64,000 nucleotides of DNA from Phorcus lineatus (lineage: Eukaryota; Mollusca; Gastropoda; Trochida; Trochidae): contig OV121081.1 in the NCBI GenBank assembly GCA_921293015.1, positions 44,045,877 through 44,109,876 on the forward strand. Reading direction: 5' to 3'. The stretch's first letter is position 1; every line of letters starts with the position of its first letter. Positions 3,743 to 25,570 of the stretch are shown one piece after another. The notes beneath the pieces were generated by a model. It saw only the letters and a program-made list of their open reading frames with translations. It had not been told where the DNA came from and did no database searches. A program made the position numbers and the translations under genes.

Positions 3743-3872
3743 GTCCCGATCCTCCCTGAGTTAAGGCCTAAAAGGGATATGGGATATGTTCAAGTTAACC
3801 GCTTCAAACGTCACCAGATTGTATCCCTATACGCTAGGATACGAAGTTACCCTACAATAAAGCGGTAACTTG
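3743..3872 (+). repeat. Left terminal inverted repeat of the 21.8-kb insertion
   Basis: The first 130 bp of the insertion match the reverse complement of its last 130 bp at 92 positions with no indels. The best part (30-110 bp from the end) is 63/80 identical, including TGTTCAAGTTA-type and CGTCACCAGAT segments. The arm is itself foldback-like: AAGTTAACCGCTT (about 3782-3794) pairs with AAGCGGTAACTT (about 3861-3872) with one bulge, and GTATCC pairs with GGATAC inside that loop. Most differences from the right arm are transitions. Confidence 0.85.
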
Positions 3873-5837
3873 TAATGTCATAACTGTATCTTTACGTTTA
3901 GCGTTAGTGCTTGAGGAAGCGTTAACCAACGTCGGACTCAGTATCTTTGTAGCCCATATTTGATTGAGTTCCATTCATAGTGTTGCATACAGCATGTTTG
4001 CAGCGAATAAAAAGAATAAAACTGTCACAATCCAAGAATAACTGTTGCCATTCTTGAATTAAAAAAATGTGATCGACAAGTAACATGTTAGATAATGGGT
4101 ACAATTAAGGTCAAATATGTCATCGTTATTTGCACGCACTGTAGATTAACTGTAATATAGTATCAATTTCTGATAACTCGTTAATCAATTAAACTTATTT
4201 TACGCATCCCATTTCAGAATTTTTTTAATATATTTCCATATTCGCCACTCTGAAATATGTTAGGTCAAAATGGAGTTATCGTTCTTGAATCGTACTCTTT
4301 TTTCGTGAAGATAAAAATGTGGTTATCGCGGATATTCAATCACGTTCAGTCAACGTAGACCGCGACCAAACCTTTCAAGGTCACGTCATTTCATGGCATA
4401 TAGGCTTAGATCTCGATCTAAAATCTTTATTTCTAGTAAATTAGACTTCTACTTTTCATATAGTGTCTTTTATAGTGAAAATATTACTAAATTATTTACC
4501 TTACTAAAGGTCATGCATTTTGGCGAACTCACCCTTCCATCGCTTAGATCCGCTCGACTATGGTCGACGACGGTTGGATTGAAAGGGGAATCTTGATCTA
4601 CGCAATGGTCGTTGTAACATAGAAAAAGGTCGTCTTGCAACAAGAGAGCAGTGTGGATCATAGTAATAGAGGTAAGGACATGCATCTGACTTATTAAAGT
4701 TGTAACCAGCCATTTAGCCTCAGAAGGCCAGGAATTCAGAAATATCTGCCAAAAATACGTACCCTCGTGTAACCTGTTTCCGTGGTATTAAGAAATACAC
4801 TTCCATTAGCATTATTGCGTATAGTAACAACCATCTTGAACATCACAAAGTGATAGAATACATGTTTGTCTGAGCTTAAAATTGCCTATAAATGGTCCAG
4901 TAATGAAATCATTCGTCTGCTCAGTGTATATTTGGTATCAGAAAACCTTCTAGAGTCACCAAATATCTCGCATTTCAATTACCTATATATTTAGTATGAG
5001 CAATACAAGCAATGTTTAACTGTTTAATTAATAACTTGCTTTCTTTGCACCGGAAAATCCTTAACAGCCAAAATTACATAAGAAATAAGCGTTCTATAAT
5101 TTCACATATTTCTCAATTTGACTGGGATTAAACCCTTTTGTCAGGTGATTCAGGATAACATTAATTAATGTATAGGATTAAAGGAAGACACTGTTTGAAA
5201 AAAATTTATAGAGATTATTATTATATTCTTATAAATCAAATAAAATGTTGTCCAAAAAAAGTATTAGGTGAAAAGCATAAAATTTCATTTGATTTTCATC
5301 ACTGAAGTGAATTGTTGAGTAGATTCTAGATTGATGAAATACTGACCATTTCCTGCTTGGATTCATGAGGGACAACTGATCAATAAAATAATAACTTCTA
5401 ACTGGCCATGACCAGTACATGATTAGAGAGAAATGACATCATTTGTAAATACCACGAAAACAGGTGACCCATTGAAACAGGTCTATTAAAGGGTAAAATT
5501 GTATTGCAAATTATGCATGGTTTTATTACCATAATTTGTGATTAATTGACTTCGCAATTATTTAGACAGCTGATTATTCAAGGTGGACACTAATATTTTG
5601 TTACATTTTTTTTTTATAACAGCCATTAATAAAATGTACACAAAAACACCATGCCTCACTGTTAAACATTGCTTACAATTACTTATAATCAAGATGTTTT
5701 ATACGCTCGAAGAAGATGGTTTAAAAAAAGGTAGGATATTGTTGAATAATTTACAGTAGTCTAGATCTTCATCTAAAAAGACACTATTGCTGCTACTAGA
5801 TGTCATGATATTCTGTATTGATAATTCAATTTTTCAG
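3873..5837. other. AT-rich cargo; possible 5' exon donor at 4671/4672
   Basis: No gene is recognised with confidence. The strongest single signal is a splice donor (AGAG followed by GTAAGG, cut after 4671) downstream of a GC-richer patch at about 4530-4670, which could be a 5' untranslated exon for the exon chain that begins at 5838. A short frame at about 5693 (starting MFYTLEEDGLKK) ends at a GTAGGA donor but its phase does not join the 5838 exon in the expected frame, so I do not add it to that gene. Confidence 0.3.
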
Positions 5838-8800
5838 GAACTGAGGGAATGGTTCATAATTGCAGCTGGTACTAACTTCAGTACAGACTTTGGTGTACGT
5901 ATGTAGATATTGTAATTTAATCAGGTTGTGGAAACCCACTGAACGTGACATTATATCCTGAGTGGCCTATTATATTAAATTTTCGATTATTTTTCATATC
6001 CCAATCTGTATGTAGTCATGTATTTTCTGATTTTAATTAGGTATGGTTCATTTCAGAAGGATAATTGGAAAAGAGTGTTGATATTCAATAAGATTTATTT
6101 ACGGTATTCTTAAATTTAGTCTGTTAGCTGCAAAATGTCAGTAAGATAAAAGTCATTGATATTTTTTGAAAATGCTTTGCTTTACTATTAGTTTCCAATA
6201 ATTAGAAGGAGATTGTTTCAAATACTCTAAATTCTAAAAAGGATTAAATCCTAGAAGTTTTTATGATTTTGAGTTTCATCATAAAAGTTTATTTTGTAAG
6301 CCAAATCTCTCTCTAAAAGTTTATACGGAACACTTTGGCAGAAATTTATAGTTTTGAAATATTTAGACATTATCTCAATTGGGATAGGATGCATTAATAG
6401 GCCAATCACGTTGAATTATCCTGTTCAATGGATTTACCCAACCCGATGCAGTGCTGCCTACTAGTGGTGTAACGATTCATCGATAGTATCGATGTTTGCA
6501 TCGTCTACTACGCGATACGAGTTCATCGATTCAAAACATGTTTAGGCAATATATCAGAATATTTATATCGTGAGGGTCCACAATACATCGATGTATCGCC
6601 ATAAGAGACAATATATCCTGATACTGTTAACATAATTTTTTTCAAACAAATGACTATAAAAGCTAGAAAGGTTTTTCTTCTATTTCAGAGATAACAGTGA
6701 TTAGAACAGAAACAGAAAGAGAAATTACATGATATTTCTGATATTACTAATTATTAGATATGTAATTTTACAGTCACTCTAATTTTGTGACTTCCCTTCA
6801 TGTAATATCTATGACAATTTAGTATCAAAGGATTAACATTACTGTTCTATGTCCTATCTATAGTTCTTTCATAAACTGTAGAGAATCGGGATACGTATTG
6901 TATCGCGACTACTGTATTGTGATGATAATCGTCTCACAGGTTCCTTGGCAATAATTCCATGATATATCATCGCCTAATAAAACTAGAATCGGGATATATC
7001 GTCTCGCCACCAAGGCCAGGATACACAGGTCTACTGCCTACTGGTACTCTTTTGTCGATTTTGTACACTTAACAGTGTTAAAATATAATTGTACACCAAT
7101 GTTGGAAATTGTACATCTATTCTGAAAAAAAATCTTTACTTCAAGCAATATGTTTTGAGTATCAGAGTACTAAAGTGTTACAACGTTCAATGTGAACTGT
7201 ATATTCTTAGGTAACAAAGTGATAAAAGGTTTAGAAATATCCAACCAGAACATGAATCTAACCGTAAAATACTACCTTCATTGTTTGTTTATACATAAAA
7301 ATAACAAAATACACATCCTCTATGCAAAATATGTATAAATATTACAATATGTCTAAACATTCACATAACAAAAGGTAGGCTGTATGCTGATGATATGACT
7401 TATTCAAATTATCAAATTACTTACCTTGATGCATTTTCTCTGGACTAAAATTTAGTCTTCGAAATATTTTAATAAGTCACTGTTCCTTCATCCATTTGAT
7501 TTTTTTCTTTGGGCTCTTAATATATGTATGTAGTCAAATCTAGACTTGCTGACTGAGAACTCCTATTTAATAAACAGTCATGAAGCAGGACTACATTTTC
7601 TCATTCATATGCATATAAGTGACACTTGATACTTGAAGTGTGTTTCCTTTATTGTCACCAGACCTTTGAGATGAGGTGGTACTTTCCGAGTAACATATTT
7701 GATCAAAGACTATCTCAATTAAAAATAAATTTTTTAAAAATTGATAAACTTTGACAAGTGAACAATTATTTCTCACAGTTTGCTTGTAATTCGTATGCTT
7801 ATTTCCTGTATCTAAAAGTTTGTCACAAATATTTACATGCATATATTAGAAGATGATACTTACTGTTCATGTTGCAGGAATATATCATTAACTGTCACAA
7901 ATTAGCAAAGTCAGTGAACCAATTGATGCTTGCCTATATAGTTTAATGCTGTGCATTTAGATTTTGAAGGGAATAAATGCTTCCTGAAATTGTACTATCT
8001 CTTCATATTTTAATTATCTTTTTCAGAAAAAAGATAGCTGTTGCAAATTGCCTTCTGTTAGCCTGGATGCCTTCAAAATATGGTTTGTGAAATTTTTTGT
8101 GTGTTAAAATTTACCAATTAAATATAACTTTAGCTCAAGTCAAAAAGACCAGACAATTTTCCTTTAAACCTTCTTTTGACTTGTTTTCAGAAACCAGTAA
8201 TGATTAGAATCTAAAATAGTAAGATTATCATCTTTTTAGGATGGAGATTAAGATTTGCAAATTTCCATGTCCTTCAAATATTTTGGCACGGCAGGGGGTT
8301 CAATTTATAGTGGTTCAAACTACTCAAAAACCAGATTGCATGGGAAGTCCAAATTGTAGATTAACCTATTGGTTTTTTTAGAGAGAAAAGCTTGTACAGT
8401 AGATCTTGATTCCCATCTACTGATGCGGCAGGGTGTCCATCATCAAACTTTCTTTTTCGGTAACAAGTACTGCTTCATTCTCTCCCCTCATAGGCTTAGG
8501 CACTCAAGTCATTTCTTTCCACATTAACCTTGCAACTCTTTCAAACTCCAAAAGTGGTGAAAATTTGCTAGATATGTGCTTTCCTTATTTATGTCAAATC
8601 AAATACTGTTACATCTCCGACTCACCTCTGACATCTCAGAAGAAATTGTGCTGTCAAAACAATGTTTGAAGTACAATTTAGACACTAAAAATCAAACTAA
8701 CAGTGCAGATTGCAAAAGGTTGGATTTGGTGTTTCTAACCAATAAATTGCTCTTCTTTTCACAGAGATTACTAGGGAATAAATTACAGAGTAATCTTTCA

Positions 8801-11800
8801 TATAACTAAAATCTGTATGTTTTTCCAAAAAGGTTCTCAATGAAACATAAATATATATTTGTATTATATTTATATAACTTAGGTATATATATATTGAAAT
8901 TGCATCTGTATTGGCTCATCAGACGTGAAAGGTCAGATGGGCTTATGGGACTAACCAGCAACCATAAACTTTTCACATTTTTGACCTCTCCTCCAGAACT
9001 GCTTCACCTCAAACCTGAAATGTGATAGGGTGTCTGTCCTTACATCTTCATCATCTTTTCTCATCAGGCTAGAAAGCTAAAAAAGTTATGATATTATCAA
9101 TATCTTTGTTGAATGAAGACCAAGATTAGTAGATTTAGTTCATCATTCTTTAAAGCATGGCAGGAGTGGAGTGAAACTTTAGGACTGTTAACCCTGTTTA
9201 GGACTGTTAATCCTGTTTAGGGCTATGATCACATGCTGACTGTTATCGAATAGCAATTTCTGTGGACTGTAGCACCAATCATAAGATAGATACAACACTT
9301 CTCATTGAATTATTTTATTTGTTAATCTCTGTCTCACAAAATGTAATCTCACGCTGACCTCATGTGTCAAGAGCAATGAAATAAAACGGAGTAGTTGTTT
9401 CGGGTTAACCACAAGTCTAAAAGGGTTGGTCACAGGGTAACCAATCAACATCTGACCTTTTTTTTTGCTATAGATGAGTTTTTGAAATAATGTGTTACTC
9501 ATTGGTGCTCACCAGTCATGGTTCAATATCCTTTATTTAATTCATCTGGTTCTAGATTATCGAAGTCTCTAAGCGTTAAAATCGTCGTAGGCCAATGTTA
9601 AGAAGCACTAAGAGAGCTTAAAAAATACAGGCCCTGGCAAGGTCCGATTGACTTATGGCATTGCATGTCATCCAACGTCCATCTGTTAACTTTTCATTAT
9701 GTCATCTAATCTCGAGAACCATTGACTCATGAGAACTGAAACCTTGTATAGAGACTCCTTGACAAATAGGGGGCTGGATAACAGTCACTTGCAGAGTGGT
9801 CTGCTTTGGATCATAGGTCTGTTGTTCGAATCTCGTCAGAGGCTTGGCAACTTTATCAGCAGTAAAGAACTGTTGGGGCCACAGCCTAAAAACCTATTTT
9901 CATGTTCTTTTTGTGGAGCATGAGACCTAGAAAGCTATTACCTTGTGAAAAGACTCCTTAGCTGACGGGGAGGTTTATGTTTGATTTGGTTACCCTGTGA
10001 CCCTTTATGGACCTTAAAACCTATTTAAATATTCTTCTCCAGAAGCAATGGGTCTAAAAGTGACTAGCTAATGGATATTCTAATGTAAAGATTTGTTGAC
10101 CCTGTGAGCCCTAATGAGGGCCCCACCATTAAAACTTTTTTTGTCTCCATTTCAGGAATAAGGCCTGGAAAGCTAAAATATAATGTATAGACAGCTAAGC
10201 TGATGAGGATTATAAAAAAGGGATTTGTTTATCCTTTGGCAGCTCAAATGGTGACCTTGTGACCATTCATAAAATATATAATAGATAGCCAAATGAGCTA
10301 CAGGCCAAATGCCACTATTCTTTACAAAATGCAACTTTATTCCTTTATAGTGTCTGTATGTCTCTAATAAGCATTGAAATGATACTTTTCAACAATGATA
10401 AGTTCTTCACACAATAACTATTTACAATGGTTGACATATTTCACTCCAAAAACATTCTCTGTAACAAATTCTTGAATTGTTTAATCATTTGTATTTGATG
10501 ATGGAAAATATTGCCTAAGAGAATGTATAATCTTTATGGTCGCCAGGTGACATGTGTGGGGGTGACAAGAACATGATGCAGAGTCTATGCCAGCTGGTCT
10601 CAGCTCCACACGACACTATGAAGAAACAAATCGATGATTTTCAGGCAGGTACAAAGCAGAGTGCAATTTATTTCAAATGATAACAAGCAAAAGATTTTAA
10701 TAAATGACTTTAAAGCAACAACATGATGGATATTTCCCAGGACTACCAAAGAAAAAAATCACATCATCAGACAATACCGCATCACAGTTTAACCAATGAA
10801 AAGCTACAAAATAGCATCAATCAAGCAATGATAAGCACTTTTAAACAAATGATAACGTAAAATGAAACACTTGATATGCTTGATAACAATGTTACTAGGC
10901 ATGCTCATTAAAAAAATGGAAGCTATACAAGATATTTTGCAAATGTCCTCACGGAGGGTGATTTCTTGTCAAATTCATAATCAGTTTTTTATTTTACCTG
11001 CTCATATTGAATTTTTAATTCTTTTACTCAAAATTACTTTTTAACATGCGGCTGAGTTCCATGTTAAACGAATTTTTACTGTACTTTGATTATTCCGCAT
11101 GCACAGTAACAGGATTGTGTATTCAGTGTTTCATTTTGCGGTGTTGAGTTTTTATAGTACTTATCATCACTTGATGCAATTTTGTAGCATATTGCTCTTT
11201 TTTATACAGGTTCATCTATGAATGAGTACGTTTCTGCCTTTCATTGCGATTAAAAAATTTACTTTGGAATCTCAATTTTATAAAAATTAGTGCTGTAACT
11301 AAATTTTGACTAATTGCCACACTCTTAAATATTTGCTCTCTTATGGCTTGTGAAAATACTTTTTGTAAGTAATAAAAGCATTTAAAACATGCTTAAAATC
11401 AGCAAGATATCAATTATGAACATCCTTATTCCATGTTCTGACCCCCCCCCCCCCCCCCCCCCCCCTTGGGACCACCAATCTGAAATTACACGAGCCCATT
11501 CCGACATTATCTCATCTCCACCCCCTCCCCTGAATGTGCACCATTTAAGAGAAAATACATTTATAAGAACCTAACAAAATTTCATCATGTTACTTAGTGA
11601 ATCCTTTATTTTGCGAAGTAAGAATTACCTCTTTTGGAGTGATTGATTGACATTTATCTTCACATATTTGATTTATAGTCGCTCTAAAAACCTTGCTGTA
11701 ATGATATAAGTGTTTAAGTTTTGATGTATCTAACAGTTATGAATTATAAATTGGTTAGAAGCAAAATAGCAACTGCCAAGACAATGCTTTATCGTCAGAA

Positions 11801-12012
11801 ACGTTAGTCATCAAATGCCTGATGAGCTTCAGAGCCAACAATACTATTTTCTATATAACATTTCAAATTACTTTTTAGCCCCATGAACTACAGAGGCAAA
11901 TTGTTTCATATTTCATATTTAATGATTATGCATTCCAGGGCATCTGGCATTGGACTTGGACCATGGACCGAAAAATATGACAGATGTTGAGAAAAACAAG
12001 ATTCTCCAATGA
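5838..12012 (+). CDS. Candidate split gene (five 3'-side exons), product unknown, weakly death-domain-like
   Basis: Five exon candidates with AG acceptors and GT donors join in one open frame: 5838-5894, 6057-6103, 8027-8082, 10547-10648 and 11939-12012. Junction phases are 0, 2, 1 and 1. They give about 112 residues ending in a stop at 12010-12012; AATAAA follows at 12145-12150. Readable pieces include ELREWFIIAAGTNF, ANCLLLAWMPSKYGD, MMQSLCQLVSAP and LALDLDHGPKNMTDVEKN. The spacing of LLLAW, KYGD and SLCQL resembles helices 5-6 of a death domain, but this is by eye. No start codon or 5' exons are assigned, and weak points are the T-GTACGT donor at 5894 and the poor pyrimidine tract before 10547. 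An alternative last exon (10741-10799, PKKKITSS, stop TGA) is also phase-compatible. It may be a truncated host gene copied into the element. Confidence 0.42.
6463..7033. mobile_element. hAT-like miniature transposon with 9-bp flanking duplication
   Basis: About 571 bp flanked by CTGCCTACT on both sides (6454-6462 and 7034-7042). The left end reads AGTGGTGTAACGAT. A matching inverted end (TGGTGGCGAGACGAT, 6998-7012 reversed) lies 21 bp inside the right boundary. The interior is rich in ATCGAT, TATCG and related words. TAGTGG-type ends with 8-bp duplications are typical of hAT elements, and eight of the nine flanking bases would fit. No transposase frame, so non-autonomous. Confidence 0.6.
7043..8026. 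other. AT-rich intronic-type sequence, no gene seen
   Basis: Apart from lying between the hAT-like element and the 8027 exon, this stretch has no feature I can support. Short frames such as the 83-codon minus one at 7591-7842 have no family resemblance or splice context. Confidence 0.5.
8083..8880. other. AT-rich stretch with unconvincing short frames
   Basis: Contains overlapping plus frames of 77-78 codons (8433-8669, 8576-8809) with no recognisable domain. It would be part of the intron between the 8027 and 10547 exons. Confidence 0.4.
8890..10290 (-). repeat. Dispersed repeat with internal subrepeats, inverted copy
   Basis: Degenerate copies of a module reading, in this direction, roughly CTTCTCCAGAAGCAATGG, then GGTCTAAAAG/GACCTAGAAAGCT, an ACTCCTTAGCTGA-type segment, and GTTACCCTGTGACCCT. 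The same module appears reversed at 18680-19545 (CTTCTGGAGAAG, AGGGTCACAGGGTCA). One end reads TGGCATTGCATGTCATCCAACGTCC, matching the reverse of the GGACACCATGCCATAA-type words at 18990-19015 and 19500-19535. It looks like an old dispersed element family in this genome. No coding frame. Confidence 0.55.
9769..9842 (+). repeat. Decayed tRNA-derived SINE head
   Basis: The stretch resembles a degraded tRNA: GGGGGCTGG start, AGAGTGG in the D-arm position, CTGCTTTGGATCATAG as an anticodon arm with a possible TGG anticodon, then GTTCGAATC (9824-9832), which matches the Pol III B box. Pairing is incomplete, so it is not a functional tRNA; a tRNA-derived SINE fragment inside the older dispersed repeat is the likely reading. 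Confidence 0.45.
10741..10799 (+). CDS. Alternative last-exon candidate for the 5838 gene
   Basis: After acceptor TTTCCCAG the sequence continues the frame of the exon ending at 10648 (two bases complete the split Gly codon) and reads LPKKKITSSDNTASQFNQ, then TGA. The intron would be 92 bp. No AATAAA is close; one occurs near 11370. The exon at 11939 has a better-placed poly(A) signal, so this one is either an alternative end or a chance frame. Confidence 0.22.
11443..11466 (+). repeat. Poly-C tract
   Basis: An uninterrupted run of more than 20 C, with further C-rich sequence at 11518-11530. It translates as a proline run in a short frame that I do not consider a gene. A run of this kind is length-unstable and may be mis-sized in the assembly. 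Confidence 0.9.
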
Positions 12013-12144
12013 ATGGATGATTACCCATTTCCTAGTGATGAAAATCTTGTGCTTGGAAATTGATGTTTGGACTGCAGCTACGGGATCTTGAACCGAAAGC
12101 TTAATGAAATGATGCATGTGACCTATGTAACAAATATTTTTAAA

Positions 12145-12150
12145 AATAAA
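12145..12150 (+). promoter_or_regulatory. Poly(A) signal AATAAA for the 5838-12012 gene
   Basis: Hexamer 133 bp past the stop at 12012, followed by a T-rich stretch (GGTTTTTTTG near 12164), the usual arrangement of a metazoan cleavage site. Confidence 0.4.
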
Positions 12151-12460
12151 GTATAAAACTATTTGGTTTTTTTGCTCACTCCTAAAAAATAGATTTCAGT
12201 TTCCTATATATACAGCAATTACTATCTTTCTTTCGACTAGATACTAAATTGTAATAAACTTTAACACTACATGATACATTGACTGTAAGTTTATTCAAGA
12301 TGCTATTTCTTGTAACTTTTCAGATGTTAAATGGTTATTATTGCAACTGACATTACAAGTTATGCCATAAATCTTAAGTTCGAGTGAAATGGTAACATCA
12401 CATGAATAAGAAGTCTCATTTTGAACTTCTATTTCTGAAAGGCTCAGAAATATGATCATG

Positions 12461-12641
12461 AATTCAGTAGTAATCCAAAAGGCACCCATTTTTCTTTAAG
12501 TATTGCATTAATTAATCATATTGGGCTCTTGAAATCAGAATGGTCAGTTTCAAATTCAGTATTAATCCTAAAGGCCCACATTTTCGTTTATGTATTGCAT
12601 TAATCCTAATGGGCTCTTGAAATCAGAATTGTCAGTTTCTA
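12461..12641 (+). repeat. Tandem duplication, about 92-bp period, two copies
   Basis: Copy one starts AATTCAGTAGTAATCC (12461) and copy two AATTCAGTATTAATCC (12553). Both continue through a TATTGCATTAAT segment to GGGCTCTTGAAATCAGAA. The copies are clearly diverged and contain no gene. Confidence 0.75.
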
Positions 12642-14168: not shown

Positions 14169-15566
14169 CTTCATAGGTACCAACTAGCCCTGCTCTCATG
14201 CATATTACGACAGTTACTGTGTAAAAATCACATATTTGATACTTAACCCTGCTCTCATGCATATTACCGACAGTTACTGTGTAAAAACCACATATTTGAT
14301 ACTAAAATTTTCTCTAGTGCATATTACCGACAGTTACTGTGTAACAATCACATATATAGCTGATACTTAACCCTTCTCTATTGCATATTGCGGACATTTA
14401 CTGTGTAAAACTCACATATTTGATATTAAACCTTACTCCCATACATATTACCGATAGTTACTGTGTAAAAATCACATATTAAAAACTAAACCTTAATCTC
14501 ATGCATATTACCGACAGTGACTGTGTAAAAATCACATATTCGACACTAAACTTTACATTCATGCATACTACCGACAGTTACTGTATAAAATCCTATATTT
14601 GATACTAATCCTTACTCTCGTGCATATTACCGATAACTTCTTTGAGTGGCATTTTAGAAGTTGGAGGCAACTAAGTACAAATGATTTATGGATGACAACT
14701 TCTTTATTCTACCGATATATTACCGATAGTTACTGTATAAAATCACATATTTGATACTTAACCTTACTCTCATGCATATTACCGATAACTTCTTTGAGTG
14801 GCATTTTAGAAGTTGGAGGCAACTAAGTACAAATGATTTATGGATGACAACTTCTTTATTCTACCGATATATTACCGACAGTTACTGTGTAAAATTCAAA
14901 TATTTGATACTAAACCTTTCTCTCATGCATATTACCTACAGTTACTGTGTAAAAATCATATATTTGATACTAAACCTTTCTCTCATGCATATTACCGACA
15001 GTTACTGTGTAAAAATCATATATTTGATACTAAACCTTTCTCTCATGCATATTACCGACAGTTACTGTGTAAAAATCATATATTTGATACTTAACCTTAC
15101 TCTAATGCATATTACCGACATTTACTGTGTAAAAATCATATATTCTAAACTAAACTTTACATTCATGCATTTTACCTACAGTTACTGTAAAAATCACATA
15201 TTCGACACTAAACTTTACATTCATGCATATTACCGACAGTTACTGTGTAAAACTCACATATTTGATACTAATACTTACTCTCGTGCATATTACCTACAGT
15301 TACTGTAAAAATTCGTATCTTTGTTCCTTAACCCCTCTTTCATGGAAATTTACCAATAGTTACTGTTTAAAAATCATATCTTTAATCCCAAACCTCACTT
15401 CCATGAAAATTACCAATTGCTATATAGTTCCGAAAACCAAATTTCATGGCATTTACCAATAGCGACTGTCAAAAATCATAGTCTTTTCCTTAAACCCCGA
15501 TTTGTCGGCAGCTGCTGTGTAAAAATCATATTTATGAAGGCTTTCATGGAAATAACCGGCAGTCAT
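14169..15566 (+). repeat. 60-bp minisatellite, main block
   Basis: Tandem monomers of 60 bp. The copies filling 14941-15000 and 15001-15060 are identical, and outer copies grow more diverged, as expected for an array expanding from its middle. The monomer length is a multiple of three and one frame lacks stops, so a 185-codon frame (14751-15308) repeats a 20-residue peptide rich in I, L and Y. I read this frame as a by-product of the repeat. A 152-bp supermonomer is inserted twice (see 14631). Confidence 0.92.
14631..14934 (+). repeat. 152-bp supermonomer duplicated within the minisatellite
   Basis: An extra block starting CGATAACTTCTTTGAGTGGC and ending near CTACCGATATATTACCGA occurs at 14631 and again at 14783, 152 bp apart, each followed by a normal 60-bp monomer. 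The two copies are nearly identical, so the duplication is recent relative to the outer monomers. Confidence 0.85.
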
Positions 15567-16317
15567 AGAATGTATCTCGCTTTGGTGCCGTAAAAACAAT
15601 AACAAGCCTATCCTTTGTGGTGTCAATCCATTTCGTAAGTTCGTGTCGACTCTTTCTTTTTCTCATCCTTGCCAAACTCTATACGAGGTTCAATGACATG
15701 ACTTTGCGTTTGTGTTATCAAAAGGATGTTATCAAAATCGTTTTGCTTTTCAATGATATTGGTTCTATAAAAAGTATACACTTGCTTCCAAAATCTCAAA
15801 GATTGTGGCACAAAACCGATATCATAAGACTTAGAAATAAGAAAAATGCCAAACCAAGTTTTACTTTCAAGTTGAATCACAGGATCAAATTTCATTTGAG
15901 CTCATCATTCAGTGCAGTGTGCAGATTTTTAAATCTTACATTGATTTATCATGAATAGAAACACTTGTGTAATTGGACCATTAACTCACTCTCAAGTATT
16001 TGCTTATTACTTTGAATAAACAAGACAAACCTTTGCAATTCGTTAGAAAAGATGAGGATCATGTTTTGGTTGGGCATGATGTATCTTGTGTGATATCCAT
16101 ATCTTTCAGATACCTACCAAAGGTTTACACTTATTAGCAGTCGCCAGTGGATAGCGAATAACAAATTTTGTTATCCAATTTTGTATTTCTTTTAGTTATA
16201 CATGTATCATATGTGTCTATCCATAGTTTTAGGGCATTTCCTGACAGGAGCTTTATATCCCAATCATAGTGGTTGGTATCATAGTGAAGATTCTAGGTGC
16301 AGATATTCTCTATTTAG
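15567..16317. other. AT-rich stretch, no supported gene
   Basis: Contains a 113-codon plus frame (15617-15958) and an overlapping 90-codon minus frame, neither resembling a known family. A perfect donor GTAAGT occurs at 15634, but no convincing coding exon ends there. A first exon for the 16318 candidate should lie here or farther left; I could not identify it. Confidence 0.4.
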
Positions 16318-16704: not shown

Positions 16705-16710
16705 TTTATT
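16705..16710 (-). promoter_or_regulatory. Poly(A) signal, minus-strand gene ending at 16758
   Basis: TTTATT on the plus strand, i.e. AATAAA on the minus strand, 48 bp past the minus stop. Confidence 0.45.
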
Positions 16711-16757
16711 AAAAATTAGTTCTACAAACACTGATGAATCCGAAGCAGCATGGAGAG

Positions 16758-16787
16758 TTATTTCTTGCTCTTAGCTGGGTCATCAAC
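16758..16787 (-). CDS. Last coding exon candidate, minus strand (basic tail)
   Basis: On the minus strand a good acceptor (TTTATTCTTCAG) is followed by codons for VDDPAKSKK and a stop, then AATAAA at 16705-16710. A short charged, lysine-rich tail is typical of many protein C-termini but does not identify the protein. I did not find the upstream exons. An alternative frame from the same acceptor is open for about 30 codons (LMTQLRARNNSPCC) and cannot be excluded. Confidence 0.35.
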   Translation of the reverse strand, partial: VDDPAKSKK

Positions 16788-17052
16788 CTGAAGAATAAAA
16801 TATAGATTTTAGTATAAGTGAAAAATATCTGCAACTTATTCATGTTCAAATTCTTAACATATTTTGACAACTGTTGAAATGAGAAGAATGTCAAACTTGT
16901 ATGTTGGATTCAATGACAATGTGTCCATTTCTAAATGAGATATATTTGATCAACCTTGTTTCCAGAAATTCCCATTTAAAAATGTAGCACTCATATCTCT
17001 GACAGGGATCTACTCCATGGCAGAGAACCTACTTCGTGGTGAGTTTGTTAGA

Positions 17053-17060
17053 TGACGTCA
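17053..17060. promoter_or_regulatory. Perfect CRE palindrome TGACGTCA
   Basis: Eight-base match to the CREB/ATF site. No promoter is otherwise defined here. A second copy lies at 21277-21284. Confidence 0.3.
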
Positions 17061-17648
17061 TTGAGCGATGACATTTTAATCGCAGTTCAATCGTAAGTCA
17101 TACTTCTGTTAACGGCAAAAAAGAGTAAATTAAGAAAGTCACAGTGAAAAATTGCAAACTGATAATGAACAGGTAAGTTAAGGCGATATTACTGATCTTG
17201 ACAGGTTGGTCTATATAACATTATTCTGTTCTAAGCTTTTATCGAGGAAAATTTACTTTCCTCTTCAAATAGCTTTGATGTTACAAAGGACAATTTTGAT
17301 ATGAAAATAGAATCTTTTACCTAATAGGTTTTCTCATAAATTAAAAAACTTACGAGGGAAAGTCAGTAACTTTATAGAAGTGAGTATTGATACACCCCCT
17401 AAAGACATCATCTTTGATGTCATCAAAAAATAGGACGTCTGTCGACAGTTTACAGACATAAACAACCCCTCCCAATCATTTATTTGAGATTACTTAGAGT
17501 CTGTTGAACGCAGGTCCCCTCACTATAATCATGAAAAGTTCTAAAACTGAAATTGTGTGGTTATCAAGCTTCTCACAATATGACCAATGTGTATTGGAAA
17601 GAAACCCCTTAATATTGTATTGTTTCAAAATGGTCAGCTGAGTTTAAG

Positions 17649-17837
17649 GGGGATTGCAGCTCCTTGGACGATAACCAAAGGTCAGGAAGCCCATTGAAGC
17701 TATTAAAGATAATATGGTTGCACATGGCCAGGGCTTAACAATTGTCAATTTTAGAATTAAGGTGGATGAGATATCTTCAGCATTTCTCATGGAAGTGTTT
17801 GCACCATAATTCATGAGGAAATCCCACTGCAATCCCC
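17649..17837. mobile_element. 189-bp inverted-repeat element (MITE-like)
   Basis: Ends GGGGATTGCAG (17649-17659) and CTGCAATCCCC (17827-17837) are perfect 11-bp inverted repeats, with looser pairing just inside. No clear target duplication is visible, so the superfamily is unassigned. A 62-codon minus frame spans it almost exactly and is probably not a gene. Confidence 0.55.
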
Positions 17838-18057
17838 AGCTTCGACAAAAACATTTATAAATTCTCTTGGTCCAAAAGTCAAGATATTTTACAAATCAGC
17901 TTCACTATGAGAAACAACTATTTTAAACTTATAACTTGTTTACAGGTGAGTAAGTTAGATTAACACCTGTATTCATTAAACTTACAACCCGATCACAAGC
18001 AAAACACAGTCATCAACTTAGTTACAGAACAATAGAGTTGAATGGTAAACTCTGTGA

Positions 18058-18135
18058 TCACTGATCGGTGTGCCTACTTGCAGTTATGACGAGCTCATCA
18101 ATTCTCTTTACGATTACAATGAAAGATGGACGTTC
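18058..18135 (-). CDS. Fragment resembling the C-terminal end of a protein kinase domain
   Basis: Minus-strand codons from 18135 read ERPSFIVIVKRIDELV, continue through ITASRHTDQ and stop at 18058-18060. RPSFxxIVxRxxEL matches kinase subdomain XI, the conserved RP[ST]F motif near the end of tyrosine and tyrosine-kinase-like domains. Just upstream is a strong T-rich tract, but it is not followed by AG where an acceptor is expected. Either the exon extends farther, the site is lost (pseudogene), or the match is chance. No other kinase motifs were found nearby. Confidence 0.28.
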   Translation of the reverse strand, partial: ERPSFIVIVKRIDELVITASRHTDQ

Positions 18136-18179
18136 AAAAATAAGAAATAAGTGATATTTAATACTCATGTTTGGAACTT

Positions 18180-18660
18180 AGAAAGGTAATTAATTTCCTA
18201 AAATTGGGTGTACATTTTTTAACGATTGATACATTATTTGGTAAATTATCAACACGAAAGTAAATTGCATCGTTCAGTGAGAAATATAGAAACAAGTGCT
18301 TGCCTGCTGGAACGAAATCCCAGTCATGCACCCTAATATTTTTTTAGAATTGGTTATTGACAATATAATCTGATTAAGAAAATTTAGTACAAAGTCTTGA
18401 CCTGTGATTTTTTTCATTTCATTCATCAACAAGTGGATATAAAGTCTACTGAAAACTATCAGAATATTGAAAAAGAAATAATGACAATATTAAGTAAGGA
18501 AAATATATCATTTGTATAAATATTTTGATTTTTGATTAAAAAAACATTACGATAAAGTAGAGAACAACTTTACATGATCAGAGGTATGCCTATGTGACAT
18601 AATTTTACAGTTTCGTCCTCTCTGAAAAAACCTGCAAACAATCCAGCAGGGAGGTTATAT
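18180..18660. other. AT-rich stretch, nothing recognised
   Basis: No repeat, exon or RNA gene that I can support on either strand. Confidence 0.5.
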
Positions 18661-18679
18661 ACACTTGCAACAGATAAAT

Positions 18680-19545
18680 GAATTGAAGCCTTGGGCTCTG
18701 TAGCTCATCATTCTTTGAATTGTTGATGTTCAAGACTAAGGTAAACACCCACCTATGGTGTCCACCTTTACCAAATTAACAACAAAACACCTGGCTTTTC
18801 AGGTTTTGTTATGCTTGTCCTGTGTTAGTTTGGCTACTTAGTGAGGTGCAGTCTTTCCAATGTCTGTCAACACCACAAAATTAAGGTTTTTGGGTGCAGA
18901 AATTGTGGAGATGTTAAAAAATGATGCAATTTCATAAGCCAATCAAGCCTTTCAGGTCTAAAAAGTTGATAAGTGAAAAGTTAACTGATATAAGGATGGA
19001 CACCATGCCATAAAAATAGACCCATTGGCTTTGTAGCTCATCAGGCCATCTAAAATGATTTTTACAAATGGTTACAGGCTCACCATTGAGGGGCTAAAGA
19101 ATAACAAAATCTACAAACCATAATCCCAAAGAGGTTAGGAGTCTCTACACAAGGTTTTAGCTATATTAGCATTTTGCTTCTGGATAAAAAGATAAAAATA
19201 GGTTTCTAGGGCTCAGAAACAGTTACATTTGAGGGTCACAGGGTCACAAATCTATAAATTAGAATCCCTATCAGCTAAGGAGTCTGTGCACAAAGTGTCA
19301 GCTTGCTAGGTCCAATGCTTCTGGAGAAGAAAATGAAAATAAGTTTTTTGGGCATAGTCCATGTGGCCCCAATTAGGGGTCACAGGGTCATCAAATCTAT
19401 GTATTAGAAAGCTCATTAGTCAAGGAGTACAAAAATTTCAGATTTCTGAGCCAATGATTCTGGAGTAGAAGACTAAATAGTGAAAAGTTTATAGACGGAC
19501 AGATGGACAGACAGAAGCTGGACGCTATGCCATAATGCGTGTGTC
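18680..19545 (+). repeat. Dispersed repeat with internal subrepeats, direct copy
   Basis: Several degenerate modules of about 120-140 bp, each with an AAGGAGTCTGTGCACAA-type word, then GCTTCTGGAGAAGAAAA, then GAGGGTCACAGGGTCA. The terminal part has GGACACCATGCCATAA and GGACAGATGGACAGACAG. The same family lies inverted at 8890-10290 and as fragments at 12790 and 20380. The two long copies form a loose inverted pair about 9 kb apart within the insertion. Confidence 0.6.
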
Positions 19546-19559
19546 ACAGTGTAACCAAA

Positions 19560-20380
19560 TACAAAAAATCATGATCTTCATCAGTTATAGCAACATAACT
19601 TCGTTGAATTTTTTATTCTGATATGTCGATTTGAAAAATTATTCGATGTTGAATGACAATGAATACCTGCAAATTAGCTAAGGTGAATCACAGCTAAGTG
19701 ATACAACATGTAAACTAGATCTGGCCTGTCTCAAGATTTAATTATCCAGTTTCTTAAAAATTCGTGCTGTACTCCAATTTGACAGTTGTCTTTGTCATTT
19801 TTTAGATTGTGTGTCTACGGATAGAAATTACAAATAAATGTTAATATCATTTATTTTTCATCAAGAATGTTAATATTTTCAACTGGCTTATTAAGTCCAA
19901 GTTTTCTGCTTTGTTTCATGCGGCTGCCTTCTTTTGAATGCCATTCCTATGGTATGAAGTCACAAAGGCCAACCGTTTTGATGTCACAATGTTTGAGTCA
20001 CTGTCACTATGGTCTTGGTCTAGTTTAATACTTTTGTGAGGCTTTTAAAATATTTCTTAATATGCTTTATTATTGTTGATTTCGGTCTCAAATTAAACAA
20101 GTATGTTGTAAGATCCCGCTGTTACAAATGTAACTGTCTGGTTTTATCAGTACAATGTTTGTAATGTAAATAATGCCAGGGATTCACATTAGGTGAGACC
20201 TCAACACACCTCTTAAAACAGTCACAAAGTCCTTTACACACAAAAATAAGTAGGCAAAACCAGAGTTCGCTCTATAACTTTAATATTAAACAGTCATATT
20301 ACAATATCTAAAACTAGTTGAGTTTGTAAAATTTCAGTGATTCATTGTTATTCTACACCAGCAAATTTAGTCTAAAACGG
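19560..20380. other. AT-rich stretch, no gene seen
   Basis: No supported coding exon. A minus-strand frame after a TTTGCAG acceptor near 19668 stays open for 17 codons, which is within chance. Confidence 0.45.
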
Positions 20381-20560
20381 CTATTTATCTTCTAAATGAC
20401 TCTTTACACACAGTTTTAGGTTTCCAGGCTTTTTGGCTCTGGTGAATAAGTAAAAATAATTTAACATTTACCGACAAACAAATGGAAGTCATCCGCCATG
20501 CAATACCATACTATACTTAGTCCATCAAGCCTTTCAGGCCAGATGAGCTAAATGCTTCTT
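20380..20560 (+). repeat. Fragment of the dispersed repeat family
   Basis: Contains the ACTCTTTACACACAGTTTTAGG-type module (read as two words, ACTCTTTACACACA and GTTTTAGGTTTCCAGG), the GGAAGTCATCCGCCATGCAA end and the GCCTTTCAGGCCAGATGAGC word found at the ends of the longer copies. Confidence 0.45.
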
Positions 20561-20680
20561 TGTGAAATTACTTTTATTAAATTTCTAGTCATATACCATG
20601 TTGACGTTAAACTAAGAAACTTGATTTTACAGTTACATTATACCTACTGTGCATAGAGTTTCTTCCCTGTTGTCACTGGT

Positions 20681-20713
20681 TCACTTCTCTGTTCCAGTAG
20701 CTTTCTCCTCCAG
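20681..20713 (-). CDS. Last coding exon candidate, minus strand
   Basis: On the minus strand TTGTTTTAG precedes codons for LEEKATGTEK and a stop at 20681-20683. AATAAA (TTTATT on plus, 20573-20578) follows about 105 bp on. An 18-bp microexon candidate (21129-21146, MIEACM, good acceptor TTTATTTTAG and donor GTGAGG) lies upstream and would join in frame, but it is too short to trust. The charged peptide matches no family I can name. It could be an alternative end of the gene whose other last exon is at 16787. Confidence 0.28.
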   Translation of the reverse strand: MEEKATGTEK

Positions 20714-20719
20714 CTAAAA

Positions 20720-22190
20720 CAACGAAGTGAACATTTTTTGTGTGAAGTCAAGTTAATTAATTCTAATAAATATCATATTGCATTTGTCAATGATTAACAA
20801 AACCAAAAACTGTGCCTGTAAGAGTCTGATTAGCTATTGAAAATTTTTATGTTGCTAAAAAGACATAGATTAACTGGTTCACATGATCAAACATTTTTTG
20901 GAAAAAGTCAATACAGATACATTATCAAAATTTGTTGAATAGGATGAGCAGCTAGAATCATATGTACTAGTATATAAGATGATTTTTTTCTTCAAGGCAA
21001 AAGAAAATCATCTATTGAAAACGCTCATTGAATATATTTTTTACCAAAGCAGTTTGAGATAATCACTGAATAGAAAACAAATTGGCATATGCAGTTAAAA
21101 TTAGGTTCTTTGCAATAAACTTCCTCACCATGCATGCCTCAATCATCTAAAATAAAATTTGTAAAAAAAAATGAAAATTGAAAAAAAGACTTTTTAAACT
21201 AAGACTAAATTGACTTATGTAGGTAGTTCGGAGTTCTAAAGCGCATATCCTACTGTCAGAGAAAACTTGATCTTGATGACGTCATCTAATGATATGCAAT
21301 ACTCTCCCACACGTGCATATGTGCTTTCTTGTGCGCTGGTCGAATATTTGTCGTATGCATTTAGGGTGAATAATGTAAATCATCTAAATGAATATCAAAA
21401 GTGTTGAAATCCACCCATCCCACATCTGTTGGTTCTGAACACAGCGATCACACAATTTTACGTGACACATTGGATTGAGGGTCAGGGTAACTTTAGGGGT
21501 ATATATTTTAGAAAAAATAGTATCACACGATCATGATGTGAGCAACACAAACTAGCGACAGCATTAATAATGTTTTGTTTTTTCTTTGAAGAAACATTAT
21601 GGGATAGGGACCAAAATTTTTTTAACAATGCACAGCGAGTCAGTTGATCAATCTTAGATCTTCCGGGAGTCGTCGTAAAATATCTCATTTCATTTATTTA
21701 AGTTTATGTATGATGGCCAAATTGGTATCGAATGTTAAATAGTCTTTAGTACTGTGCGCTAAAAAGTTGTTCTGTGGGTTCCTGCGATGTCTTTCCAATC
21801 TTAAGAGTAGCACAAGAAAGAAAGAACTTGCCATATATATCTGTGTGTGTGTGTATGTGTAATGGCATAAACACATAAAGATAGACCTTTTCTTTGTCCA
21901 GATTTTTGCAGAAATAAATCGAAAATGGAGAGTTGTGTTGTTTTAGCTACGTAATCGATATGCTGATACCACTATTGTAATTGGGCATGGTTGACTAAGA
22001 TACTTTTTTCATATGGAAGAAAGATATAAGAAATTGATACTTGTGCTTGAGTTATTTGCATACGAACTCTATTTGAAACAAAAGAACAGCTTTTAATCGT
22101 ATGCATGATAAATTTCGTAAATATTTTGTTAAAGGTGGTTATTTTACGAATGCTTCGCGTTACAACTGTTTTATGTTAAAACAGTTTAAC
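20720..22190. other. AT-rich stretch with a short GT microsatellite
   Basis: Holds a GT-rich microsatellite at about 21841-21860 and a CRE palindrome TGACGTCA at 21277-21284. No exon beyond the microexon candidate at 21129-21146 can be supported. Confidence 0.45.
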
Positions 22191-22582
22191 ACTTTAAAAT
22201 GACTGGTCCCTCTCATATTCAGGGGAGGTAAGTCCCTTCGTGTCCGACACACATATTTGAATATGCAGATAAGGGTCAACTAATATAGAGGTGGGGCTAA
22301 GCTCTTGTCTGAAGATCAAAACAACAGCTAACGGTTAAGGCGTTTTCGGCCAATAAAGTCCGTTTCCCCTACGAATTTCGAGGAAAACAGTTAGCTGTCT
22401 TCTGATGAGTAGTTTTTTGATAAGGAAAGAGTGAAAGAATTAGGTTTCTATGGTTTTCTGTTTTTGATCCGAACTGCCTAACTTATGTCTTCACAAGTAA
22501 TAATATTGGGATTTTAATAATCAAATCTATATAACTAAGCTATCCTTAATTAATTTTGTTTACATTGTTTTCATTTTTCCAG

Positions 22583-22630
22583 AACTCAGGAAAGGCCCTT
22601 GTTGAACTTGTTACTCTTGTACCAGAGTAA
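22583..22630 (+). CDS. Last coding exon candidate, plus strand
   Basis: A strong acceptor (TTTTCATTTTTCCAG) is followed by codons for NSGKALVELVTLVPE and TAA. GKAxVEL near a C-terminus recalls zinc-binding oxidoreductases such as prostaglandin reductase 3, but the match is too short to name the product. A second frame from the same acceptor, TQERPLLNLLLLYQSN then stop, would join in phase to a short ATG exon ending at donor GTAAGT at 22228, giving a tiny 26-residue product. AATAAA occurs near 23046. Confidence 0.25.
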   Translation, partial: NSGKALVELVTLVPE

Positions 22631-22639
22631 CTAATATGC

Positions 22640-25440
22640 AAAGCCATAAATCAATTCAGTGAAGGAATTATCAAGTCTACATATGATATATGAATGACAT
22701 TTCATGCTAGTTTAGTAGACAGTGAGAGAAAGAGAAAGTTTTAATGATTTTCAACCTAACAAAAAAAACAAATTATTACCCCATTATTAATCCACGTTTT
22801 GGCAGCACTGAAAAGATAAAAGATCTTAAATTATTTTTCTACCTTCAAAACTTTTTATATTGTAAAATTTATTTACAGGATATAGCCCAGCATCCAATAA
22901 GAAGCAATTCGTTTTTATTAATAAGAGGAAATTATATTATTCTTTACAAATGTATGACATTTTGTCAATTTCCTCTGAAATAAGAGGAAAATAATACAGT
23001 CAGATACAGTTATGAGAGTATTCAAAATCAAATGTCAGATGTGGACAATAAATTGTATAGTTAAAGCCATAGTCTCATTTTTGTAAGGCAACTAAACTGA
23101 ACTAATTATTCTTCACGAACAAAATCTAATCACTTACACAAATATTTCCTGTCGCATTTGTATAGATTTTCATTTTTATGCCCGTTTTACAGTTTTGGAT
23201 GAAGCATCTTATTGGCGTATGCTGTTTCAGACCGATGAGGTACCCAATCAAGTGCAATCCCATCGTGAGTACGAAACACCGGAAATCTATTCATCGCAGC
23301 ACCGATACTTATGACCGACACATTCTTCACTGAGTTTACCACCTTTTTGTTATTTCTGTATTTGAAAAAGCGTAAGCTGGGAAATTTTATGTGTTCTTCA
23401 TCACAGCCTTAGTGAAATGACGTGGTAAGGACTAACGCTCGCAAAAAACATAATATTCGGGTAGGGTAGGGTAGTTTGAAATTCATTATTGAGGGCTAGA
23501 ATGCCTGCAGAGTTCTGAAAATTGTTGCAAACGTAAGGGGAAAGATTTCTGTGAGTGGTGAACAATTTGCCTTGCAAAAATGAGACAATGACTTTAAATT
23601 GAACATAATAAAATCTGTATTCAATAATTATTTGTTTGTGCAATATTCTTCAAGTAGTTTATATTTACGAACAGGGAGACTGTTACACAAGATATGATGC
23701 AACACTCGTCTCGCAGTGACAATCAGATATACAGCAAAGTTCAGCAGCGCGTAACTTTGATCAAGGCAAGCTCGAGTAGTCCGAACTGCTTGATCTATAC
23801 CTGCTAGTCTTGTTTCTGTAAGGGACGTAACTCTACGTCTTATGGGTAGACAACTTCAATAAAAGTGCATACCGCAACAAAACAAAGCGAAGGCCATAAT
23901 TACAGTCAAAATATGATATATTACTTGCTTGTCTGTTAAACAATGAATGTTAGATAATGAATAACTACGCATTATAATAATTAAGGCCGCCCTCATTTGA
24001 AAATTGTTTATAATAACAATACTGGCACGAATTCTCTCTTTCTCTCTGATGAAACACGTGTCGATTAGAAATGTGTCATATCGACCGGCAGTGACAAAAT
24101 AGAGACAAGCATTAGCACAATTTAAAAATGGATATTGTAGACGGTTGTTCAAACAATGAAAATTTATCTCAGACATATCAAACAATTTTTAAAAAGTTAT
24201 AAATGCTACGTACTTGACCTGACTGGCTGTTCCTGCGTCGACTTCAACTCAAATAATGTCTCTCGATCGCGCATGCACTGTGTATTCTTGTGATCAAATA
24301 AATCTTTGGATCACAAGTAATACGTGAAGTTGAATAGATGATCTAACAGCAGCCATTTGGATCTTCATAAATCATTTTAAAAAACGTTTGTTTTAAACTA
24401 GAACTAGATTTACGGCTGTCACTAGGAAACGTAGTTCGTACACAAAAATATTTTCGTACCTAGATCGAACTCGTAGCTATATTCAACAAAATATTTTTCA
24501 CATAAGGGAAAAAGTTACACTTTATTGTCATACATAATTGTAGTGTTATATATAAGTATTTAAGGTGTTGTTTTTCTCAGTTTTTCAGTAATAGGCCTAT
24601 TTGAGTTTGTATTTGCTATATATATAGATAAACGGACTTTGAACAGTAATATATCGGCATATCGGGTATCTCATATCGCCTGTAAGTATATTCATATACA
24701 TGTATGTATATAAAAGTACGCCTGATCGAATCGATACAGAGCCTGGAGGGTGACACTGTATCTGGTAAATTAGATGTTTACATGTTCCTTGACCAATAGG
24801 GAACTAAAAAGTGTATAACTTAAGACGCAGCAGTAGCCAATTTTTAAGATTTGAAGCTAGAAAAATAACAATCAATCAATCTTTATAATGCATGAAGGCA
24901 AAATACCCATATACATTCTTCTGTTTTTAAATCTTGTTGTCGGAAAACTGTGTCAAAATTGTTTTCCCTCTTCCTTTTCTTTCTTAGGCCTACAGGTTCT
25001 ATATAATTCAGGCAGTGGAAAACTACAGACTAAAATCGGTCATTTAATCACATTTTTGTTTTGAAATTCACTTCATGTTATTAATTTAGTTGTGGTCGTA
25101 TTTATACGAGTTTGTTTTGGATACGAATTTACCGCACCCCAAATGCAGTTCGGTGTATTCAAACTCAAATGAGCTAAAATGAAACGAAACCTTATAGTGT
25201 TTTCAAGACTCGATTGAATTTGAATGTCTAACACATTAAAACTTTGAACTGATTGCCATTAAACTATACTTTTACTAAATTTAGTTTTACTTGAGTTGAT
25301 TTTATATCAATCCTTTACTGCAAACAGCTGAATTGTGTGATTCTTAATTTTTGGGTTTAGACGATCCGAGTCCACAATATGTTTCTTCAATACTTTTACA
25401 ATACCCGAATAACTACGTTAAGAACGGTAAACGTCTAACG
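22640..25440. other. AT-rich stretch to the right terminal repeat, no supported gene
   Basis: The longest frame is 109 codons on the minus strand (23856-24185), without a recognisable domain. A 9-bp inverted repeat (CTTGTGATC with GATCACAAG) lies at about 24289-24317. A possible minus-strand donor (CAG/GTCAAGTACG) near 24215 could mark a 5' exon. Nothing here can be assigned to a gene with confidence. Confidence 0.45.
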
Positions 25441-25570
25441 TCAGTTAAGGCCTAAGTATAACATAACTTCATATCCCAGTATGTAAGGCTACGATCTGGT
25501 GACGGTTGAAGCGCCTAACTTGAACGTATCCCATGTCTCTTCAAGGCTGTAACGTTGAGCGGATGGGCTG
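25441..25570 (-). repeat. Right terminal inverted repeat of the 21.8-kb insertion
   Basis: Reverse complement of the left arm at 71% identity over 130 bp. Read inwards it begins CAGCCCATCC, against GTCCCGATCC at the left. The inner end contains GTTAAGGCCTAA, which also occurs in the outer part of the left arm (about 3760) in direct orientation, so the two arms share more than a simple mirror relation. The foldback seen in the left arm is present but less perfect here. Confidence 0.85.

Follow-up and report, generated by a model that had tools for sequence, protein, structure and literature searches.

The window analyzed here, 64,000 nucleotides from chromosome 1 of Phorcus lineatus, a topshell, consists of a satellite array interrupted by a large insert bounded by terminal inverted repeats (TIR), with the following features.

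1–3742, no strand: satellite array with a 1,014-bp unit, on the left side of the insert.
3736–3742, no strand: target site duplication GCCATAG, left copy.
3743–25570, no strand: C1 copy of the giant, non-autonomous TIR transposon, 21,828 bp long, recognized by paired ends, 7-bp duplication, largely colinear interiors and no Pfam matches.
3743–3862, plus strand: left end, the ~120-bp left arm of an imperfect TIR, recognized by paired arms, TIR alignment and genome-wide matches.
6462–7033, no strand: smaller nested repeat, boundary within one base.
14193–15414, no strand: minisatellite within the element, with a 60-bp unit and a higher-order repeat of 152 bp.
25451–25570, minus strand: right end, formed by the right arm (~120 bp) of the same imperfect TIR, recognized by the same three lines of evidence as the left end.
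25571–25577, no strand: target site duplication GCCATAG, right copy.
25578–64000, no strand: satellite array with a 1,014-bp unit, on the right side of the insert.

The 20 satellite units compared, taken from both sides of the insert, are 98.3–100% identical in pairs (mean 99.3%) and are spaced at 1,014 bp; the interrupted unit measures 22,849 bp, that is, 1,014 + 21,828 + 7. When the insert and one GCCATAG are taken out, the joined flanks match another satellite unit at 1012 of 1014 positions, and the target site is single and uninterrupted in the other 40 satellite units found in the window. The original prediction of base-exact boundaries at 3743 and 25570, with the satellite phase restored and a perfect 7-bp duplication on either side, is thus borne out by the alignment and by the spacing arithmetic.

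The inverted repeats had been described as ungapped 130-bp arms that start at the insert boundaries; both properties hold, but the arms are imperfect, with an identity of 71–74% (92 of 130 matching positions, or 71%, in the window copy). By comparison, 2,000 shuffles gave a mean of 32.9 and a maximum of 51 matching positions, and the maximum among 20,000 random pairs of 130-mers within the insert was 58. The match is strongest 41–80 bp inside the element, not at the tips, and fades beyond ~120 bp; the left and right ends differ in sequence. Genome-wide, the left arm has 24 matches and the right arm 29, and the terminal 27-mer of the left end and the terminal 28-mer of the right end are found at 21 and 22 places, respectively, with 0 matches in the reversed-pattern control for the left end and 0 in the control for the right end.

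Left and right arms do occur as paired ends elsewhere in the assembly, so that the condition set earlier for refuting the observation does not hold: they face each other at 16 loci, the window copy included, 11.5–50 kb apart (median 21.8 kb). Of these 16 two-ended giant copies, 13 are flanked by an exact duplication of 7 bp whose sequence varies from locus to locus; in the remaining three (C16, C37a and C5b), we tentatively attribute the lack of an exact duplication to later damage or recombination. The first 10 bases of the right end are identical in all 16 copies, and those of the left end are intact in 15, being degraded in C5b. A 143-bp relative at C32, flanked by the duplication ACATGTC, consists of the two ends alone and brings the total with a duplication to 14 of 17; it does not prove that the ends suffice for movement, because an in-place deletion would give the same appearance. 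At the 14 duplication sites, only 1–6 of 14 pairs are complementary at each position, indicating no palindrome in this small sample; no clear target motif is seen at these sites, and the targets of the family are dispersed. Given that 10 of the 24 left-arm matches, three of them within the C15 complex, are 100% identical over 131 bp, the family appears to have been recently active. Diverged kin of the family are also present in the genome, and related ends bound another giant element of ~29 kb (C13:22860952–22889957), the first 6 kb of which yielded no Pfam matches at E 0.1.

Conservation of the ends was also considered as proof of their function and rejected, there being no clear difference between the ends and the adjoining interior. 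Variable sites number 15 of 120 at the left end versus 56 of 380 in the adjoining interior (15 copies) and 12 of 120 versus 95 of 380 on the right (16 copies), where rows were chosen by an exact tip, which favours the tips and removed C5b from the left set, and where right-end variability beyond 500 bp is unreliable due to deletions that misalign the rows. Among 11 close copies, the right end has 6 of 120 variable sites versus 8 of 380 in the adjoining interior.

The 50-kb locus on C15 was rejected as one ordinary copy. Here one copy of TTTTAGA adjoins the left end, and the other copy, inverted, adjoins the right end; both come from an internal site that is equivalent to the TTTTAGA sites at 14652–14658 and 14804–14810 in the minisatellite of the window copy. 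These are the two junctions that self-insertion of an excised element, in inverted form, would be expected to leave. Autointegration of Sleeping Beauty and piggyBac gives an "inversion" product (PMC3952818) that, like C15, has both transposon ends and target duplications; those products are rescued laboratory circles, whereas C15 is a natural fossil within a 50-kb locus that is tandemly repeated in the assembly. The same locus includes two identical 3,131-bp stretches, 22,511 bp apart, a pattern that assemblers can inflate and that would favor an assembly artefact or segmental duplication instead of transposition. Such an origin of the family is highly improbable, considering that 13 of the 16 loci differ in their 30-bp flanks and each have a separate 7-bp duplication, and that the assembly is HiFi plus Hi-C (PMC10444997). 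In particular, a chimera at the window insert appears very unlikely because of the separate duplications at these 13 loci.

The window copy's interior can be aligned to those of 7 other fully fetched copies and 1 partly fetched copy, in the same order except for the minisatellite and the segment 13703–14174, which recurs further on in C5a and C7. With a 4,401-bp interior query (4200–8600), the listed matches (40 of 4,528 candidates scored) are family loci alone, the nested repeat aside. Differences among the copies stem from internal deletions and from insertions of other repeats. One of the latter is the nested repeat at 6462–7033, whose termini we take to be hAT-like; it is flanked by an 8–9 bp duplication, CTGCCTAC(T), is missing from C2 and C5b, and is matched at at least 21 places outside the family. 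Outside the minisatellite, over aligned spans of 13.8–20.8 kb, the window copy diverges by 0.64% and 0.99% from two close copies and by 4.0% and 4.2% from two older ones.

The earlier observation that no transposase is visible in the insert was upheld: Pfam searches in six frames of the whole window copy produced no matches, with a nested Pao element in copy C5b recognized as a positive control (PF05380, E 1.1e-40), and Rfam produced none up to E 0.1. In the other copies, the fetched parts were surveyed for long frames, and an additional segment from C5a and another from C11a gave no Pfam matches at E 0.1; an MPM1 match in the ordinary interior of C11a was sub-threshold (17.5 bits against a cut-off of 25) and was dismissed as chance. 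Substitutions are fairly evenly spread outside the minisatellite, only 17–23% of indels are multiples of three, and the insert shows no coding pattern. Against a non-coding interior, some residual probability remains for a fast-evolving gene without a Pfam model.

The size of the element is within the range of gene-rich giant elements, and Maverick/Polinton elements are marked by genes for polymerase B, integrase and capsid. A degenerate autonomous element, formerly a Maverick/Polinton, Dada or similar large element with genes decayed beyond recognition, is nevertheless improbable: the window copy, less than 1% diverged from two others, has no Pfam trace of any of these three proteins. Dada resembles the topshell family in its 6–7 bp duplications and internally deleted derivatives, but the Dada families described in PMC3706591 have no TIRs and target small RNA genes, whereas the topshell elements have ~120-bp TIRs and dispersed targets, and Rfam and tRNA scans (the latter with a bacterial setting) gave no matches at 20 of the end loci retrieved, which included as much as 1.5 kb of flanking sequence.

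We therefore consider it highly probable (roughly 0.85) that the insert belongs to a family of giant cut-and-paste DNA transposons in P. lineatus that is low in copy number, recently active and non-autonomous, its members being moved in trans with an apparently non-coding interior as passenger. Under this scenario, a transposase encoded elsewhere would recognize two distinct ends of ~120 bp; the whole element of 11–25 kb, typically ~22 kb, would be excised as a linear intermediate and joined elsewhere through cuts staggered by 7 bp, which would duplicate those 7 bp, and the interior, with no recognizable protein, would travel along as passenger DNA. The original prediction of an undescribed class of very large non-autonomous element is sustained insofar as the elements are TIR-bounded and non-autonomous, with 7-bp duplications and 16 giant two-ended copies in addition to the 143-bp relative; the class as such may or may not be new: a 7-bp duplication is known from Galileo and one of 6–7 bp from Dada, and P-type genes are present in the genome. 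Of the smaller relative and the autonomous copy that had been sought, the former is represented by the 143-bp copy, and no autonomous partner was found in the transposase-family and end-motif searches.

Four transposase families (P, KDZ, MULE and hAT) were searched genome-wide, with 150 candidates scored for each of MULE and hAT. The genome has 11 matches to the P-type RNaseH domain, and because five of these have identical scores and an open frame of 872 aa, the P-type genes of the topshell suggest a young family. A non-autonomous derivative of the P superfamily, similar to Galileo/1360 and moved by a P-type transposase, is our leading, if tentative, guess for the superfamily; the 7-bp duplications of the topshell elements agree with the 7–8 bp of P-superfamily members. 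In Drosophila, Galileo/1360 is likewise TIR-bounded, with 7-bp target duplications that are typical of Galileo and many non-autonomous copies of variable structure (PMC4168063). The same source describes palindromic P and Galileo targets, and the 14 sites of the topshell family show no palindrome; furthermore, the left and right ends of this family are unlike, the ~22-kb interior has no coding signal, and no P transposase is found inside the copies or listed near them. Between the P-type matches and the listed family ends, the shortest distance is 3.85 Mb. A search for the 21-bp end motif (up to 3 mismatches) gave 250 matches versus 148 in the reversed control, so that weak matches are mostly chance, and among the matches listed none is near the P genes on C1, C2, C7 and C9; in 1 kb of P-copy sequence, no terminus was recognizable by eye.

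The matches listed in the other searches include no nearby candidate. The 18 KDZ matches lie at least 6.0 Mb from a listed family end, and the nearest listed hAT or MULE match, judged by eye, is a hAT ~91 kb away (C39:1502448), with 150 of 521 MULE and 150 of 287 hAT candidates scored. Altogether, none of the listed P, KDZ, MULE and hAT genes is near a family end, nor is one listed near the terminal patterns at their 21 and 22 places. This absence, the joint occurrence of 7-bp duplications, TIRs that are long, asymmetric and imperfect, and targets without a clear motif, with which no superfamily tried passed all tests, and the related ends of the C13 element with its equally Pfam-free first 6 kb would be in line with a cognate transposase outside all described groups. 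We regard such an undescribed superfamily as possible but unlikely, considering that the search covered four families, two of them through part of their candidates, and that a missing partner is commonplace among non-autonomous families. Rather doubtful is the broader proposal that an undescribed superfamily, with a 7-bp stagger and long asymmetric ends, would have kept moving gene-less elements of more than 20 kb, with no fewer than two giant lineages that have diverged (one the 22-kb family, the other the 29-kb C13 relative), leaving a natural inversion-type self-insertion.

The topshell family shares with ordinary non-autonomous DNA transposons and MITEs the common ends, the lack of a transposase, the internal deletions and an end-only copy, here of 143 bp. 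Those elements, however, measure a few hundred bases, and the bulk of the topshell family is 11–25 kb. Among the open-access papers listed in literature searches, none names this family or, judged from its title and the opening of its abstract, a giant gene-less mollusc transposon with 7-bp duplications. Non-autonomous copies are commonly pictured as short, and a typical moving unit of ~22 kb that is apparently non-coding runs counter to this picture. In the laboratory, transposition efficiency drops with element length, partly via self-insertion (PMC3952818). At C15, self-insertion of a eukaryotic transposon is met in a natural setting, and the family as a whole offers natural material for the questions of what keeps elements long and which transposase carries them. 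Should that transposase prove new, the described superfamilies would gain one that is capable of carrying large cargo.

The insertion of the 21,828-bp element in the window (the C1 copy; C-numbers denote chromosomes of the assembly) is precise. Outside the insert, the window (C1:44045877-44109876 in the 957.8-Mb assembly searched) is a satellite array with a 1,014-bp unit (1-3742 and 25578-64000) that is interrupted only once, at 3743-25570. The units are 98.3-100% alike (20 units compared), and the 200-bp sequence to the left of the insert occurs 41 times, itself included, with a spacing that is nearly always 1,014 bp except across the insert, where it is 22,849 bp, that is, 1,014 + 21,828 + 7. 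The sequence GCCATAG is found on each side of the insert and once per unit in 40 of the 40 other satellite units; deletion of the insert together with one duplication restores a unit identical to another at 1,012 of 1,014 positions. The satellite, with its large unit, is located near 44 Mb of the 79-Mb chromosome 1 and is possibly pericentromeric.

Genome-wide, the left and right arms of the element (its imperfect inverted ends) have at least 24 and at least 29 matches, respectively, and the arms pair, facing each other, at 16 loci across 12 chromosomes (a and b denote two copies on one chromosome):

C1 (window insert), 21,828 bp
C2, 15,938 bp
C5a, 25,245 bp
C5b, 23,587 bp, left tip degraded
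C7, 21,203 bp
C9, 22,001 bp
C11a, 24,550 bp
C11b, 17,132 bp
C15, 49,979 bp
C16, 14,510 bp
C19, 22,197 bp
C25, 21,742 bp
C37a, 11,486 bp
C37b, 21,434 bp
C39a, 20,766 bp
C39b, 22,129 bp

Exact 7-bp duplications, which differ in sequence from locus to locus, are present at the predicted tips of 13 of these copies; in C5b, with its degraded left tip, 6 of the 7 bases agree by eye, C16 has no 7-bp match and C37a has no match. A 143-bp element (C32:12855217-12855359), which consists of ~77 bp of the right end and ~66 bp of the left end, is flanked by ACATGTC twice. The following matches fall outside the two-ended count:

C9:28773023, one-ended or fragmentary
C11:11478408, one-ended or fragmentary
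C29:9280547, one-ended or fragmentary
C32:2232231, one-ended or fragmentary
C5:42331024, one-ended or fragmentary
C25:22506082, one-ended or fragmentary
C11:47477106, diverged relative
C13:35988164, diverged relative
C13:22860952-22889957, diverged giant relative, ~29 kb

The ends of this giant relative show 81-86% similarity to the ends of the other two relatives; within its first 6 kb, the only matches to the window are short and repeat-like, and a Pfam scan gave none.

The ends of the C1 copy form an imperfect inverted repeat without gaps, in which 92 of 130 positions match, compared with maxima of 51 in 2,000 shuffles and 58 in 20,000 random pairs drawn inside the insert. The similarity peaks 41-80 bp inward of the tips (17/20 and 18/20), is lower at the tips (11/20) and stops near 120 bp. 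The tip sequences are unlike each other (left, GTCCCGATCC; right, CAGCCCATCC); of the 16 two-ended copies, 15 retain the left form intact and all 16 the right form, and the two ends keep the same facing order across these loci. Searches with the left-tip pattern (27 bases, up to 3 mismatches) and the right-tip pattern (28 bases) yielded 21 and 22 genome matches, respectively, and none with the reversed controls. Conservation of the ends does not clearly exceed that of the adjoining interior, and therefore selection on the ends is not claimed.

The C15 copy carries self-insertion junctions. Its outer ends are flanked by GGTACGA on either side. Between these flanks, a left end comes first, followed by an inverted left end that abuts TTTTAGA (window 14652 onward), a right end that abuts the same site in inverted orientation (window 14658 downward), another inverted left end, again abutting window 14652 onward, and finally a right end. 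Across 3,131 bp the two loci with an inverted left end are identical, and they lie 22,511 bp apart. The two ends thus sit on separate copies of an internal 7-bp site (left end on one, right end on the other), and the half between them is inverted; this arrangement is the inversion product of autointegration known from Sleeping Beauty and piggyBac (PMC3952818). The tandem product between the outer ends could have originated from an inversion circle that recombined with a resident copy, or from re-insertion; possibly, the tandem part is an assembly error. The internal junction is expected near C15:25004860.

Seven whole copies and one partial copy align to the C1 copy with internal deletions and insertions and are largely colinear with it, the exceptions in order being the 60-bp minisatellite (14193-15414) and the segment 13703-14174, which appears again at a later point in C5a and C7. 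Stretches of 165 bp and 153 bp that are missing from the C1 copy (at 16252/16253 and 23819/23820) are present in the other covering copies, and these absences look like plain deletions. When 40 of 4,528 first-look candidates were scored, a 4,401-bp interior query gave 55 matches, all within family loci (including a C29 copy, where the left end was looked for and not found) except for those of a nested ~570-bp repeat (6462-7033), which occurs in at least 21 places outside the family among the matches listed. This repeat bears an 8-9 bp duplication and termini that we take to be hAT-like. The C1 copy also contains inverted pairs of related short repeats (9885-10125 and 19132-19419; 71-83% alike), and nested in C5b is an LTR retrotransposon of the BEL/Pao type that carries a Pao peptidase domain (PF05380; fetched-region positions 4215-5627).

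The interior of the element is most likely not protein-coding. The longest stop-free frame of the C1 copy (192 aa) lies within the minisatellite and the second longest (129 aa) just past it; a six-frame Pfam scan, with stops written as X, produced no matches at E 0.1, and the nested Pao frame of C5b, the positive control, was detected. Substitutions relative to the C1 copy amount to 0.64% in C11a, 0.99% in C9, 4.0% in C2 and 4.2% in C5b, and no conserved blocks were found in 200-bp windows of these comparisons, the exceptions being the minisatellite, where the alignment is unsure, and the window at 11943 in C9 (6.5%). Among the indels, 17-23% are multiples of three. The maxima of three-base periodicity (chi-square 10.5 and 7.5 among 150 and 107 overlapping windows) are unremarkable given the number of windows. 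A fast-evolving gene that has no Pfam model is, strictly speaking, still conceivable.

Eleven P-type transposase matches were detected in the genome, and five of these (C1:70747120, C2:65240950, C7:30291251, C9:2093092 and C37:24968504) have equal scores and an open frame of 872 aa, which suggests that Phorcus lineatus harbours a young P-element family. None lies near the family ends listed (nearest, 3.85 Mb), and neither does any of the 18 KDZ matches (nearest, 6.0 Mb). With 150 of 521 MULE and 150 of 287 hAT candidates scored, the nearest match listed is a hAT at C39:1502448, ~91 kb from a family end (by eye). At the 14 target sites (those of 13 giant copies plus that of the 143-bp element), we found no palindrome, with 1-6 of 14 sites complementary per symmetrical position against ~3.5 expected if all bases were equally frequent. 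No strong motif emerged either; T or G precedes the duplication in all 14, a weak signal given the many positions examined. Galileo (PMC4168063) shares the 7-bp duplication, but its palindromic GTATTAC-like sites have no counterpart among these 14. The 6-7 bp duplications ascribed to Dada (PMC3706591) also fit, but Dada is described there as lacking TIRs and targeting small-RNA genes, whereas this family has TIRs and no Rfam or tRNA matches were obtained in 20 of the end loci retrieved, including as much as 1.5 kb of flanking sequence. The duplication length agrees with both, the other features compared speak against each, and the family is filed in neither.

The likely route would involve a trans-acting DDE-type transposase that excises the element as a linear molecule and cuts the target with a 7-bp stagger. 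Ten of the 24 left-arm matches listed are 100% identical, three of these in the C15 complex; because of these identical arms and the divergence of less than 1% between the C1 copy and two others, the family appears to have been recently active. This family of non-autonomous DNA transposons is real and its members are unusually large; it possibly belongs to a new superfamily. The general kind of element is already known; what sets the family apart as a variant worth pursuing is its size in the absence of genes, the asymmetry of its ends and its natural product of self-insertion.
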